The translations under genes were made by a program, and so were the position numbers. From the NCBI GenBank assembly GCA_029547205.1, contig JAKPPT010000068.1, positions 1-41,921 of the forward strand: a DNA stretch of 41,921 nucleotides, written 5' to 3'. Of the stretch, positions 2,009-27,671 are shown one piece after another. The DNA comes from Spirochaetota bacterium (GTDB taxonomy: Bacteria > Spirochaetota > Spirochaetia > Treponematales > UBA12059). Position 1 is the stretch's first letter. Every line of letters begins with the position of its first letter. The notes beneath the pieces were generated by a model, which searched no databases, had not been told where the DNA came from, and worked only from the letters and a program-made list of their open reading frames with translations.

Positions 2009-3415
2009 ATGAATCCTCACAATAAAAACCTGAAACCATCAACAAGCCGACAAGCTTCCAGAACACGAACTGGGAACCATTCCTCTTTAAAGCAAGTTAA
2101 ACTAGCTTCTAGTAGCGGTAAACATACAGCATCCGATTACTATACCGTTCAACAACCTGTATTGCCTGAAAATCTCGCTGCTCACATGGATCAATTGCTT
2201 GATGCAATTGATAGGGCTCTTCCGCTCAGCCCTGCACATAAAAAAGACCTTAAATATGCTGTCCGAGACCTTTCGCGAGAGCTTACGAGCGAACGGACTG
2301 AACGCAAACGCGATTATCTGGGGATGCCCCGCAATCATGCAGCATACATTCAATACTTTCTTCCCTGGAATGTGCTCCGTATTGCTCAGATCGTTGCAAA
2401 TCTCGATGTTTCTTTACAAGATGGGGACAGCATTTTAGATATTGGTTCAGGGCCATGGACTGTTCCGCTTGCATTTTGGATTGCGAGGCCAGAACTCCGC
2501 ACCAAACAGCTCACCTGGATACTGATGGATCGCGTTAAAAAGCCAATGGAATCCGGACGAGCTATTTTTACTGTACTGAATGAGATGCAAAATCTAGCAG
2601 ATTGTCCCTGGCAGTTTGTCACAGTTCGTGAACAATTCCCTGCTCTAGCAGAAAAGAAACAACCTAAGCCATTTGCGCTCATAACAGCTGCAAATGTACT
2701 CAACGAACTATTTTGGAATGAACGCGTACAGCTAGACATTCGTGCCAGCAGTGTACTGGAAAGTGTAAGTCTAAATGCAGGACCAGGAACGCGACTGCTC
2801 ATTATCGAACCGGGCGAACCTCGATCGGGCACCATGATTGCAGCGCTCCGTGAAAGCATACTGATCAATGCGCAGCATCTCAAAGGACGCATTCTTTCTC
2901 CTTGTCCACATACCAATGCTTGTCCAATGCCCGGCAGCTATCTTGGAAAAGCTCTACGAGCGCTCAGGACTGGTGCGCCACTCACTAAAGAAATACCTGC
3001 TGCGGTAAACATGCCCGCATCACGACAAAAATACCCCTGGTGCCACTTTGTGCTCAACAGTTCTCCTGCTCCCAAACGATTGCTCGAATTATCAGAAGCA
3101 GCGGGCATACCTAAGGAAAGACTCGTTGCAAGCTGGCTTTATGTAGAACTATTTTCAAAACAACCGACACAATATGAAAAAAATCATAAAAAAGAGGAAA
3201 ATTCTATCAGGATCATCTCTGATACAATACGCGCTCACAATAAAATATACCGCTATGGCTGTGGGGAAGATGGTTATCTTATGGTAGGGCAGCCATTCTC
3301 CCACTACCCCTCAGGAACACTCATTACACTTGCTGATAAAAAAATCTGGGTATCACACAGTATTGATAAAAAATCGCATGCACTGTTAGTAGAACAACCA
3401 AATCAAGAGCAGTAA
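2009..3415 (+). CDS. Rsm22/METTL17-like small-subunit methyltransferase family protein
   Basis: 468 residues from ATG 2009; an in-frame TTG at 1970 is possible but lies at the edge of the repeat. The fold is a Rossmann-like SAM methyltransferase with ILDIGSGPWTVPLA as the SAM loop, followed by the family signatures LITAANVLNEL, LLIIEPGEP, LSPCPH..ACPM and WCHF. These are typical of the Rsm22 family, homologues of mitochondrial small-ribosomal-subunit assembly factors; METTL17, a member, is an Fe-S protein. Cysteines C299, C305 and C345 are visible candidate ligands. About 35 extra residues separate ACPM from WCHF. The first 55 residues are basic and Ser/Thr-rich. No clear ribosome-binding site is seen. 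Whether the bacterial protein methylates rRNA is unproven. Confidence 0.75.
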   Translation: MNPHNKNLKPSTSRQASRTRTGNHSSLKQVKLASSSGKHTASDYYTVQQPVLPENLAAHMDQLLDAIDRALPLSPAHKKDLKYAVRDLSRELTSERTERKRDYLGMPRNHAAYIQYFLPWNVLRIAQIVANLDVSLQDGDSILDIGSGPWTVPLAFWIARPELRTKQLTWILMDRVKKPMESGRAIFTVLNEMQNLADCPWQFVTVREQFPALAEKKQPKPFALITAANVLNELFWNERVQLDIRASSVLESVSLNAGPGTRLLIIEPGEPRSGTMIAALRESILINAQHLKGRILSPCPHTNACPMPGSYLGKALRALRTGAPLTKEIPAAVNMPASRQKYPWCHFVLNSSPAPKRLLELSEAAGIPKERLVASWLYVELFSKQPTQYEKNHKKEENSIRIISDTIRAHNKIYRYGCGEDGYLMVGQPFSHYPSGTLITLADKKIWVSHSIDKKSHALLVEQPNQEQ

Positions 3416-23565: not shown

Positions 23566-23618
23566 GTACAGTAAAAGACAATCCTGCTGATTTATTTCAA
23601 TTATAGTAAGAGTCAGGT

Positions 23619-24626
23619 ATGATTATACAGAAGTATATCCCACTCATGCTGTTAGAGCGTGCATCCTGCAAGCGAAAGGACAAGGCAGAAATTGTCCATA
23701 CGATTCATTTAATGATCAACTAGCGTGAAAAATGCCAACGAGAAGGCAGAATATCTCTTGAAGACGATGTAAAATATTGTAAAGATCCATTTTTTAAGTC
23801 TTTGTTAGAAATGGTTATGAAGAATTATAATACTGAAATACTTGTAGATTATGGTCTTACCAGGCTGATAACATCTGGATGGAAAGGTAAAAAGCTATTA
23901 AATGCTTTAATATATTTTTCGGGATGCATAGCTATCTCAGAAGGATACTACCCATCAATTACACAAAAAACACTTGCGGCATTTCTTGGGAATGATGAGG
24001 ATTTGGTTAAAACTGATTCCTATAACGTTAAAAACATGTTACCAGATGAGCCAATAGAGTTTAATTCTGCAGATGAATTGCTCAACGCAATACTACCCAA
24101 CCAGAAAGCTAAGACTCAAGAAGATACTAACGATGCTTTTGAGTCGATGCCTGTTGAACTATCAGCTGTTGCACTGCTTCATCAGCGCAAGCATGAACAG
24201 GAGAAAATTCGTAAATCACTTTCTGCTAAGAGACTTTCAGAGATTATTCAAATATTTTGCAAAATACCGTATTTTGATATTAGACCATATATCGATTTGC
24301 TACAGACTAAATTAAACCGAACCTTTCAATTTAACGAATCAATCTATATGCCCGTATATGGTTTCCCTGCAGCAATAAATTTTTTACAAATTATTGATAG
24401 CAAAATTGCTCTGCAGGTTTTAAAAAATATAGAAAAAAATGATAAAGCAAATTTTCAAATACTTATCGATAACCTTGTTTCATTTGAGGACATACTGCAG
24501 CTTGATAGTTATAATTTTCAAAAGCTTGTAAAAAGAAAAATCAAACAATTTGCTATGACTCTTAAAGGTGCGAATCCCCCTGTATTAAAAAATTTTTTAG
24601 AGAAACTTCAACCTGAGACAGCCTGA
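23619..24626 (+). pseudogene. FliG-like flagellar motor protein, amber codon at position 35
   Basis: One frame of 336 codons runs from ATG 23619 to TGA 24626, broken only by TAG 23721-23723. The C-terminal half resembles FliG middle/C-terminal domains: SFEDILQLDSYNFQKLV (from residue 288) and AMTLKGAN match the conserved FEDI-LLD and ALKGA of the rotor switch protein that contacts MotA. The segment just after the amber codon (QREGRISLEDD, KDPFFKSLLEMV) looks like the cytoplasmic loop of MotA (REG-LALE, DPFL-GL-LVVDG); this is my pattern match, less certain than the FliG part. Starts after the stop (for example near 23802) would lose this segment. Motor part, regulator or decaying copy are all possible. 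Confidence 0.6.
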
Positions 24627-24646
24627 ATTATACGAAATAAATTAGA

Positions 24647-24853
24647 ATGCATAGATCGCCATCAAAATCTGACATAGAGGCAATCCAGCGAGATTTAGTA
24701 CTTACAATAATAAAAAAGCATGATGGGGAGAGATTCAGTTTTAAGAGTAAAACCGGCAACCAGTCAGTTTCATAGATTGCTTGTAGTAACAATCCATATG
24801 CCCCTATCAATTTTTACAACAGTAAGGATTGTATGGCTTTAAAAACATTTTGA
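24647..24853 (+). other. Possible small gene with an in-frame amber codon
   Basis: From ATG 24647 a 42-codon frame (MHRSPSKSDIEAIQRDLVLT...) reads like coding sequence, meets TAG at 24773-24775, then stays open to TGA 24851-24853. No ribosome-binding site is clear, and the end overlaps the uridine kinase promoter. It could be a remnant, a small gene with a mutation, or chance. Confidence 0.25.
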
Positions 24854-25532: not shown

Positions 25533-26069
25533 CTATGAACGCGAACCATTGGTGTACCACCTAATTACTCCTACTTTATTTTTTTTATTATTAAAAATCA
25601 TGCCACCATTCCAGAACTCCAGCGCTGCTATAAGACTGTTTCCTCCATCATCAGCTGTGCTATTTACTCCTTTATAAGCTGCGAGCTCTAAAAAACTGTT
25701 AAAATCCTCACGGTATAACGCTTCTTGTCGTTTCCTATAAAATTCATTCCATGCTTCAAGTTCTTTAAACCCATCCCCCTCATCTTCTACAATAATTCTC
25801 ACTCGTTTTCTAAAATCAAACCATACTTTTAGTTTTTTTTCAGGATTCTTTTTGTTACCATGTTTTATACCATTCTTTATAATTTCTGATATTTGTTGCT
25901 CTAAAAGATTTCCTTCTCGATATATATCTGGACACGTACTCATGATTTGATTTGTATACACTCTAATCTTTTCATAGATACTTGGAAATTCGATGTACTG
26001 CATTCCTTGAGCATCAAATATTTCATTGTATTCATCAACAATAAGCTTACGAATTATCAGCTGCTTCAT
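25533..26069 (-). CDS. HATPase_c anti-sigma-factor-type serine kinase
   Basis: 178 residues with the GHKL ATP-binding fold of RsbW/SpoIIAB kinases: N-box EIIKNGIKHGN (about 62-72), G1-box VEDEGDGF (about 93-100) and a C-terminal GGNSLIAAL resembling the G2 box. Such kinases bind a target, often a sigma factor, and phosphorylate an STAS antagonist on serine. The unusual part is the insertion between the G1 and G2 boxes (EFYRKRQEALYREDFNSFLE), which makes it longer than plain RsbW. The partner is encoded two bases upstream. The target is not in the window. Confidence 0.85.
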   Translation of the reverse strand: MKQLIIRKLIVDEYNEIFDAQGMQYIEFPSIYEKIRVYTNQIMSTCPDIYREGNLLEQQISEIIKNGIKHGNKKNPEKKLKVWFDFRKRVRIIVEDEGDGFKELEAWNEFYRKRQEALYREDFNSFLELAAYKGVNSTADDGGNSLIAALEFWNGGMIFNNKKNKVGVIRWYTNGSRS

Positions 26070-26071
26070 TA

Positions 26072-26392
26072 TTAAACACCTTTATCAATTTCCCGGAGCA
26101 ATGGCAAAATATTTGCCATTGCTAATACTTTTCGAGGTGTGCCCTGTATACCAGAAAAGCTTAACACAATATTTTTTATTTTTGCAAATTGCAGAGCTTT
26201 TATGATTGCCCCTACTCCTGTGCTGTCAAGATAACTGACATTCTGTAAATCAACATGAACTTGACAGCTAGCATTTGAAATTGCATGCAACATTGCATCT
26301 GATGCTTTAATTCCAGCATAGAGGTCAAGATCACCATGAATTTCAATTGTTATGACACCTGTCGTGGAGTTTGTAAATTCTCTAATTTCCAT
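26072..26392 (-). CDS. STAS-domain anti-sigma factor antagonist (SpoIIAA/RsbV-like)
   Basis: 106 residues, a single STAS domain. The phosphorylation loop is SYLDSTGVG, with Ser57 the likely site. When unphosphorylated it would bind the kinase encoded next and free that kinase's target; the SpoIIE-type phosphatase across the shared promoter region would restore it. The gene is the first of a two-gene operon. The CATACT -10 box ends seven bases before the ATG, and there is no ribosome-binding site, so the message may be leaderless. Confidence 0.93.
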   Translation of the reverse strand: MEIREFTNSTTGVITIEIHGDLDLYAGIKASDAMLHAISNASCQVHVDLQNVSYLDSTGVGAIIKALQFAKIKNIVLSFSGIQGTPRKVLAMANILPLLREIDKGV

Positions 26393-26398
26393 AAGGCT

Positions 26399-26407
26399 AG
26401 TATGACA
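26399..26407 (-). promoter_or_regulatory. Extended -10 promoter of the STAS gene, leaderless
   Basis: On the minus strand this reads TGT-CATACT; the last base of the hexamer is 26399, so +1 falls at 26392, the first base of the ATG. Confidence 0.5.
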
Positions 26408-26485
26408 ATCGATTGTTAAAATAATCTGTATTCTTTATTAAAAATTATTTTATAAATTTAGTTTAACACTCATTTAAAAATGCCG

Positions 26486-26494
26486 TGTTAATAT
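26486..26494 (+). promoter_or_regulatory. Extended -10 promoter of the SpoIIE gene, near-leaderless
   Basis: TGT-TAATAT at 26486-26494; +1 is expected at about 26501, one base before ATG 26502. A TTAACA at 26463-26468 is too far for a good -35. An AGAAG could also serve as a weak ribosome-binding site if transcription starts further upstream. Confidence 0.45.
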
Positions 26495-26501
26495 AAGAAG
26501 C

Positions 26502-27671
26502 ATGAAAACGATTGAAAAGATAGTACACAATATGACAGTACGGCCTAAGCCCTATTCAAATTCAATACTTACTTTAGCACGCCATACCATGTTCGTCTAC
26601 AGCTCAGCTAAGGTAATCGAAACAGCGGATGAACTTCAACACTATCCTGATATTCCTGTTTTTGGTGTTGTTGATTCAGAAAATAAGCTTGTTGGTATTG
26701 TTGATAAAGAGTCCCTCTTTGTCACTATTGGAAAGCCATTTGGACGTGAAATTCTCAGACGAACGTCGATACTTGAATTTGTCCAGCATATACCGGCATT
26801 TGATTATAGGACAGACTTTTTTACTGTTTTTGAAAAATTACAAAACAACCTCGAAATAAGTTTAGCTTCATACATTCCTGTTATTGATGAACAACAGAGA
26901 TTTGCTGGAATTTTTTCACGGCACGAGCTCAATGAGTTTCTTGCCAATATAACTAAAAATGATATTGAAATTGCAGGAAAACTCCAAGAACGTCTTCTTT
27001 CTTTTTCAGAATATGTCAGAAATGATTATGCTGTCTATGGTTGGTCAAAATCTGCGCGTGGTATTGGAGGTGATTTATTTTTTATTCATCCATTACAAAA
27101 TGATTGTATCTTTTCATGCTTGTGCGATGTTTCAGGGAAAGGAGTTTCTGCATCGGTTATTGTATCAATGATTTGGGGTATGCTTTTAACCTACGATTAT
27201 TCAAAAAGTTTAGCCAATCTTATATTACTCCTCAACAAAGCAATAATCACCACTTTTCATATGGAAAAATATGTAACTGGTATTTTTATGATATATAACC
27301 CCCATACAAGACGAATGATCTATGCTGATATGGGGCATTCTCATGCTCTACTAATAAGAAATAGAAGAGTGCTCCCAATACATACAAAAATAGCAAATCT
27401 CCCTATAGGAATTGAAACAGACATGAAACCGTATATCGTTTCATTCCATGTTCATAAAAACGATACTCTATTGCTCTATACCGATGGAATATCAGAACAA
27501 CATGATGAATTGGGTAATGAATTTGGAGAAGAAAAACTTATGAGGCTTATTCATGAACACTCTCATTCAATCGAAAGCTTGCGAGAATCAATTATCTCAG
27601 CAATAGAATTACACAAAAAGGACGTACCACAGCAAGATGATATGTCATTCTTGCTCTTCGGGGTCACGTAA
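26502..27671 (+). CDS. CBS-SpoIIE phosphatase of the partner-switching module
   Basis: 389 residues. The N-terminal 155 residues contain two CBS motifs (VPVFGVVDSENKLVGIVDKE and ASYIPVIDEQQRFAGIFSRH), a fold that usually binds adenine nucleotides. The rest is a SpoIIE/PP2C phosphatase: ARGIGGDLFF near residue 190, CDVSGKGVSAS, DMGHSHALLI, LYTDGISEQ and QQDDMSFLLF supply the metal-binding aspartates. It should dephosphorylate the STAS protein encoded divergently. The CBS input suggests control by energy charge or S-adenosyl ligands instead of a membrane sensor; there is no membrane segment. Its end overlaps the convergent acyltransferase gene by 27 bases. Confidence 0.92.
   Translation: MKTIEKIVHNMTVRPKPYSNSILTLARHTMFVYSSAKVIETADELQHYPDIPVFGVVDSENKLVGIVDKESLFVTIGKPFGREILRRTSILEFVQHIPAFDYRTDFFTVFEKLQNNLEISLASYIPVIDEQQRFAGIFSRHELNEFLANITKNDIEIAGKLQERLLSFSEYVRNDYAVYGWSKSARGIGGDLFFIHPLQNDCIFSCLCDVSGKGVSASVIVSMIWGMLLTYDYSKSLANLILLLNKAIITTFHMEKYVTGIFMIYNPHTRRMIYADMGHSHALLIRNRRVLPIHTKIANLPIGIETDMKPYIVSFHVHKNDTLLLYTDGISEQHDELGNEFGEEKLMRLIHEHSHSIESLRESIISAIELHKKDVPQQDDMSFLLFGVT

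Follow-up and report, generated by a model that had tools for sequence, protein, structure and literature searches.

A decayed copy of a spirochaete gene family joining a MotA-like cytoplasmic domain to FliG_C, and a possible clutch or brake role of its intact members

Results and Discussion

Features of the locus

The window, a 41,921-nucleotide stretch of DNA from a Spirochaetota bacterium (contig JAKPPT010000068.1), carries on its + strand, at 23619-24626, a region containing the four peptides QREGRISLEDD, DPFFKSLLEMV, SFEDILQLD, and LKGAN. The neighbors of this locus are non-flagellar, a nitroreductase gene upstream and a uridine kinase gene downstream. An earlier note had treated the region as one open frame, but codon 35 of this frame is an in-frame TAG (23721-23723). 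The stretch free of this stop, 23724-24623, comprises 300 codons (chance probability of about 1e-8 for the local composition), and its codon-position G+C pattern resembles that of the neighboring genes. The first ATG, GTG, or TTG past the TAG is the TTG at 23802, which would give a product of 274 aa. No RNA families or tRNAs were found in the window. The genome to which the window belongs (G000; 2.65 Mb, 99.6% complete) encodes MotA and FliM elsewhere, as well as FliG in two separate genes. At 25533-27671, the window also contains a SpoIIE phosphatase gene with CBS domains next to genes that were recognized by eye as encoding RsbW-like ATPase and STAS anti-anti-sigma proteins; these genes constitute a partner-switching module.

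When 59 related genomes were searched, the closest full-length relative of the window protein was an intact protein of 400 aa without stops, encoded by a genome of the same bacterial family (G021; E = 4.9e-32, 29% identity, residues 3-296). The features assigned to the locus are as follows.

23646-23720, + strand: the ~25 codons with which the former gene began (LLERASCKRKDKAEIVHTIHLMIN), forming the start of the MotA-cytoplasmic-like domain 5' of the TAG; collinear with profile positions 6-29 (E = 0.06) and aligned with the start of the G021 protein
23721-23723, + strand: in-frame TAG within the MotA-like domain, where intact relatives have L, F, Y, or M in the alignment
23724-24017, + strand: remaining MotA-cytoplasmic-like domain, with the equivalents of the TM2-TM3 loop and the post-TM4 tail joined; Glu98 equivalent kept, Arg90 equivalent replaced by Gln (profile matches)
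24018-24150, + strand: linker region, of low similarity in alignment A4; the equivalent region is of low confidence in both predicted models described below
24151-24425, + strand: FliG_M-like stretch common to the window and G021, lacking the EHPQR motif (alignment A4; PDB matches to FliG begin at query residue 192)
24426-24623, + strand: first half of FliG_C (SFEDILQLD to LKGAN), stopping short of the torque helix (PF01706; NCBIfam fliG)
24624-24626, + strand: TGA inside the FliG_C homology; the Pfam FliG_C model runs through it to 24653
24627-24653, + strand: FliG_C homology beyond the TGA (Pfam FliG_C match)
24656-24718, + strand: out-of-frame stretch that may be what is left of the last FliG_C helices (SPSKSDIEAIQRDLVLTIIKK); suggestive only, at 5.5 bits to the C-tail profile, for which about 0.9% of random 200-base stretches reach at least 5 bits

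Similarity and decay of the window copy

The earlier note had regarded the FliG match of this region as solid and its MotA match as tentative. The window copy alone scored 22.8 bits against Pfam FliG_C (PF01706), below the cut-off of 23.3, whereas a match allowed through the TGA gained about 7 bits and reached 29.8, above the cut-off; the NCBIfam fliG model matched at E = 1.1e-7. By itself, the similarity to FliG is real but weak. The FliG call was right, and the C-terminal half of the intact G021 relative is a clear FliG_C. The NCBIfam MotA model gave a marginal E = 0.0075, and a PDB search with the window protein returned no MotA at E up to 10. On the other hand, a fusion-family profile built without the window matched 23724-24623 at E = 9e-25 (profile positions 33-219), and the second-best of 1,175 six-frame pieces was the collinear piece 23610-23720 (positions 6-29, E = 0.06). 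Because this profile matched both sides of the TAG, the homology crosses the stop. Judged from these comparisons, the similarity to MotA is marginal when the window is taken alone and unambiguous through its relatives. The tentative MotA match thus held by way of the intact-family profiles, for which PDB matches were to MotA and PomA only. Two findings had been named as grounds for giving it up, an N-terminus without MotA similarity in profile searches and one assignable to the normal FliG N-domain; MotA was found, and FliG_N was not.

Since the homology runs across the TAG and past the TGA and the torque helix is missing, the window copy is, with high probability, a pseudogene, and at the least it is heavily degraded. 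The TAG by itself may be a sequencing error, as one assembly is available; such an error would not account for the TGA or the missing torque helix. The two stops and the loss of the torque helix, together with the Arg90-to-Gln change, indicate that the copy is probably without function now. In the N-domain tree, its end branch had a length of 1.11, and that of G021, its sister in a group with an SH-aLRT support of 96, a length of 0.45. The window copy illustrates the loss of the fusion family in one lineage. The suggestion of a single soluble protein bearing both faces of the rotor-stator contact is borne out by the intact relatives of the family, but it fails for the window copy on account of the TAG, the TGA, and the absent torque helix.

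Layout and distribution of the intact fusions

Relatives of the same architecture, for which the earlier note had proposed a search, were found in several families of Spirochaetota, the phylum covered by our family searches. Besides the G021 protein, at least 10 intact fusions were obtained (G452, G385, G483, G445, G463, G482, two in G359, G439, and G368). Their common layout is a MotA cytoplasmic domain of ~130 residues, a linker, and FliG_C; G087 has three MotA-like copies ahead of FliG_M/C, and weaker members occur in G564, G604, and G688. These proteins form an undescribed spirochaete family in which a MotA cytoplasmic domain is joined to FliG_C in one soluble protein. A literature search for MotA-FliG fusions in spirochaetes, with most subscription journals outside its coverage, found none.

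The distribution of the family is patchy. The fusion was present in 6 of 46 genomes of the class of G445, a survey in which G369 showed only an N-domain at a contig end plus a separate FliG-like piece, and in 3 of the 395 genomes sampled in the class of the window. Soluble, uninterrupted MotA-cytoplasmic domains were seen in many Spirochaetota in a phylum search of 393 genomes. One bacterial family (f4; L003-L006 and L020-L049) carried a standalone N-domain gene in 28 of 30 sampled genomes and, where examined, this gene was followed by a gene encoding a diverged N-domain plus FliG_C. An NTPase-like gene, recognized by eye, precedes the standalone gene in some f4 genomes. The fusion genes had no conserved neighbor in the neighborhoods compared and lay apart from flagellar operons. 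A first contig scan with the window protein as the query gave no relative. A scan with the G445 N-domain returned its own record and apparently ordinary MotA proteins, mostly of Lachnospiraceae, with no new named fusion; the match to ordinary MotA-like proteins supports the MotA homology.

The dN/dS ratios of close intact pairs were 0.04-0.20 for the fusions and 0.08-0.28 for the two-gene form of f4, with some dS values near saturation. This range (0.04-0.28) points to purifying selection and indicates that the intact copies are functional. In the N-domain tree, MotA lay on one side of a branch with a support of 92. Most of the fusions, the f4 proteins, and one solitary protein fell into one group, whereas the forms of G087, G034, G127, and G029 were nearer to MotA. 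Given this placement, the tree, whose support is moderate, suggests that soluble MotA domains arose more than once, and perhaps the fusion did as well. Three clustered fusion-family genes (L198, L204, and L206; G368:C4:33847-36200) encode proteins of 266, 157, and 391 aa, the later two of which are strongly diverged.

Domains, predicted structure, and conserved residues

With the N-domain profile (A2), MotA proteins of ~260 residues were found in almost every genome of the order, most of them at E values of about 1e-12 to 1e-16. The MotA of G021 aligned with the N-domain profile in two blocks, profile positions 25-92 with MotA 77-144 and 95-132 with MotA 220-256. This two-block match indicates that the N-domain consists of the TM2-TM3 cytoplasmic loop of MotA joined to its post-TM4 tail, with TM3-TM4 missing. 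Against the PDB, profile A3 matched MotA and PomA chains only (best E = 6.5e-28, chain residues 78-139 plus 215-250), and the next, unrelated entry was at E = 0.45. At the other end of the protein, PF01706 scored 42-132 bits in the intact members versus the cut-off of 23.3 (103.4 in G445, and 132.1 for the C-terminal half of the G021 protein).

The AlphaFold model of the G445 protein (276 aa; pLDDT 89.8, pTM 0.61) has two confident domains and a low-confidence linker at about 141-170. Residues 19-129 of this model superposed on MotA (8ucs_C) with a Z score of 17.1 (1.7 A over 111 residues), residues 20-120 on PomA with 17.2 (1.0 A), and residues 177-270 on FliG (1lkv) with 18.0 (0.7 A over 94 residues), whereas unrelated folds gave Z scores of at most 5. 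The model of the G021 protein has the same FliG half.

Residues were numbered according to E. coli MotA and FliG of MG1655. The equivalents of MotA R90 and E98 were kept in all 10 aligned intact fusions and also in domain 2 of G087. FliG R281 and the acidic pair at 288/289 were kept in 11 of 11 intact fusions; FliG K264 and R297 vary among the fusions. FliG_N, the FliF-binding domain, gave no Pfam match in the window, G021, or the other fusions. The EHPQR motif of FliG_M, through which FliM is bound, was absent from the fusions examined, G087 having EHPNT. No transmembrane segment was found in the fusions, whose highest 19-residue hydropathy was 1.0-1.7 versus 2.2-2.6 in MotA, and a gap occupies the positions equivalent to MotA Pro173 and Pro222.

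Comparison with known proteins

The fusions resemble MotA and PomA in the two-block sequence of the N-domain, in its predicted fold (Z 17), and in the equivalents of Arg90 and Glu98. They differ in that they lack the four transmembrane helices, the TM3/TM4 residues Pro173 and Pro222, and an ion path, and in being soluble and joined to FliG_C. They are similar to FliG (PF01706/TIGR00207) in the fold of the C-domain (Z 18), in 54% identity to the FliG_C of 1LKV, and in the torque-helix charges of the intact members, whereas FliG_N is missing, FliG_M with EHPQR is missing or degenerate, and a MotA domain stands in front. As they have neither the FliG_N and EHPQR of FliG nor the transmembrane helices of MotA, the fusions are a distinct family built from domains of both.

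NCBIfam NF047717, the family of LIC10244, matched the G439 fusion over positions 9-241 of 252, across both domains (E = 1e-13), and also aligned with fusion members in the genomes searched; the best score among the members found was 58.7 bits, far below the curated cut-off of 475. This Leptospira family (PerRA/PerRB upregulated protein) is annotated as hypothetical and is not linked to MotA or FliG. It is a divergent relative of the fusions. Leptospira genomes carrying LIC10244 itself were found neither among the genomes sampled from the phylum nor among those of the G368 family. LIC10244/LIMLP16540 has been described as a hypothetical cytoplasmic protein, upregulated 6.61-fold under PerRA/PerRB in host-adapted cells (PMC8638967, Table 1).

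The structure of MotA with FliG_C (8UCS), in which two adjacent MotA cytoplasmic domains grip FliG_C, was obtained by fusing FliG_C to MotA via an unstructured linker (PMC11302681). The engineered construct has the same order of MotA, flexible linker, and FliG_C as the natural fusions, but it was built on full-length membrane MotA, whereas the natural fusions are soluble.

YcgR, the c-di-GMP flagellar brake, reportedly binds MotA as well as FliG (PMC12713396). The likeness of the fusions to YcgR and to the clutch EpsE lies in the proposed role only, that of a soluble protein at MotA and/or FliG. The fusions consist of motor parts and contain no PilZ or glycosyltransferase domain, for which Pfam gave no match in the window, G021, or the other fusions. 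Known stator-rotor regulators such as YcgR and EpsE are unrelated to motor parts.

Proposed role of the intact members

We infer that the intact members regulate the flagellar motor from the cytoplasm, without being anchored. The role that appears most likely, by analogy with YcgR and its reported contacts with MotA and FliG, is that of a bivalent decoy, competing where rotor and stator touch. The MotA-like half would occupy or cap the torque helices of FliG in the rotor and the FliG-like half would occupy the MotA pincer of the stator unit, so that the fusion, when produced, would compete at the contact, serving as a clutch or brake; alternatively, the two halves might bind each other, which would be an off state. 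The variation of K264 and R297, the lack of flagellar neighbors, and the patchy distribution count against this explanation. The existence of the family and the decay of the window copy, taken alone, are highly probable; for the whole statement, in which the window copy is a decayed member of a spirochaete family of MotA cytoplasmic and FliG_C domains whose intact members act as a clutch or brake at the stator-rotor contact, we estimate a probability of about 0.5.

The conservation of both contact faces and the flexible linker would also suit adaptors or assembly factors that bind stators through the FliG_C half and the rotor through the MotA half (or head to tail), and that recruit, store, or position stators around the large spirochaete motor instead of inhibiting them. 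Tandem MotA cytoplasmic domains in G087, G034, and G368 would fit such a multivalent scaffold. However, the patchy distribution, with most of the sampled flagellate relatives lacking the fusion, argues against a core assembly role, and the genes have no flagellar neighbors; we consider this role unlikely, though it deserves to be kept in view. It is improbable that the fusion is a divergent FliG paralogue still incorporated into the C-ring in place of a regular subunit, with an N-domain that does something unrelated. Some FliG_M-like sequence is present in G021 and G087, and spirochaetes already have two FliG copies, as does G000, but no member has FliG_N, the only trace of EHPQR is the EHPNT of G087, and most members carry FliG_C only.

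For the window copy itself, the 300 stop-free codons and the gene-like G+C pattern could mean that translation in G000 still begins at TTG 23802 or ATG 23811 and yields a useful shortened protein of ~270 residues. Such a product would be missing the first MotA helices, which include the FliG-contact residues, as well as the FliG torque helix, and the homology across both stops and the long branch also speak against it, so that its existence seems quite doubtful. The marginal MotA match of the window might even be put down to chance resemblance or a chimeric assembly. The chance of this is negligible, because it is contradicted by the match of the leave-window-out profile over both halves, by the full-length match to G021, and by the same layout in many independent genomes.

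For the engagement and release of stator and rotor, which is an open question, a natural soluble protein with both contact faces would be a ready-made probe. A testable hypothesis is also gained for LIC10244, a Leptospira protein of hypothetical annotation that host-adapted cells switch on (PMC8638967). More broadly, and tentatively, spirochaetes may have repeatedly made soluble stator cytoplasmic modules combined with rotor parts (FliG_C, FliM/FliY-type EIDALL peptides, and leucine-rich repeats), which would be clutches made of motor parts on both contact faces, one of them possibly CheY-controlled.

Other soluble MotA-domain proteins

In a Treponema-like genome, locus L052 (G076:C12:9500-15000) encodes on the - strand three adjacent soluble MotA-cytoplasmic-domain proteins (588-1523, 1904-2437, and 2869-3411) with FliM/FliY-like peptide ends. 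One of them holds TISQDEIDALLGG, 13 residues identical to the N-terminus of the protein encoded beside FliM in the same genome (L193:2421-3578). The N-terminal region matching TISQDEIDALLGG is the one known in FliM and FliY to bind CheY-P. In addition, L050/L072 (G034:C1:2357500-2362500) encodes a protein, 805 aa or longer, that begins with a FliG_C-like region and also contains leucine-rich repeats and two MotA-cytoplasmic domains.
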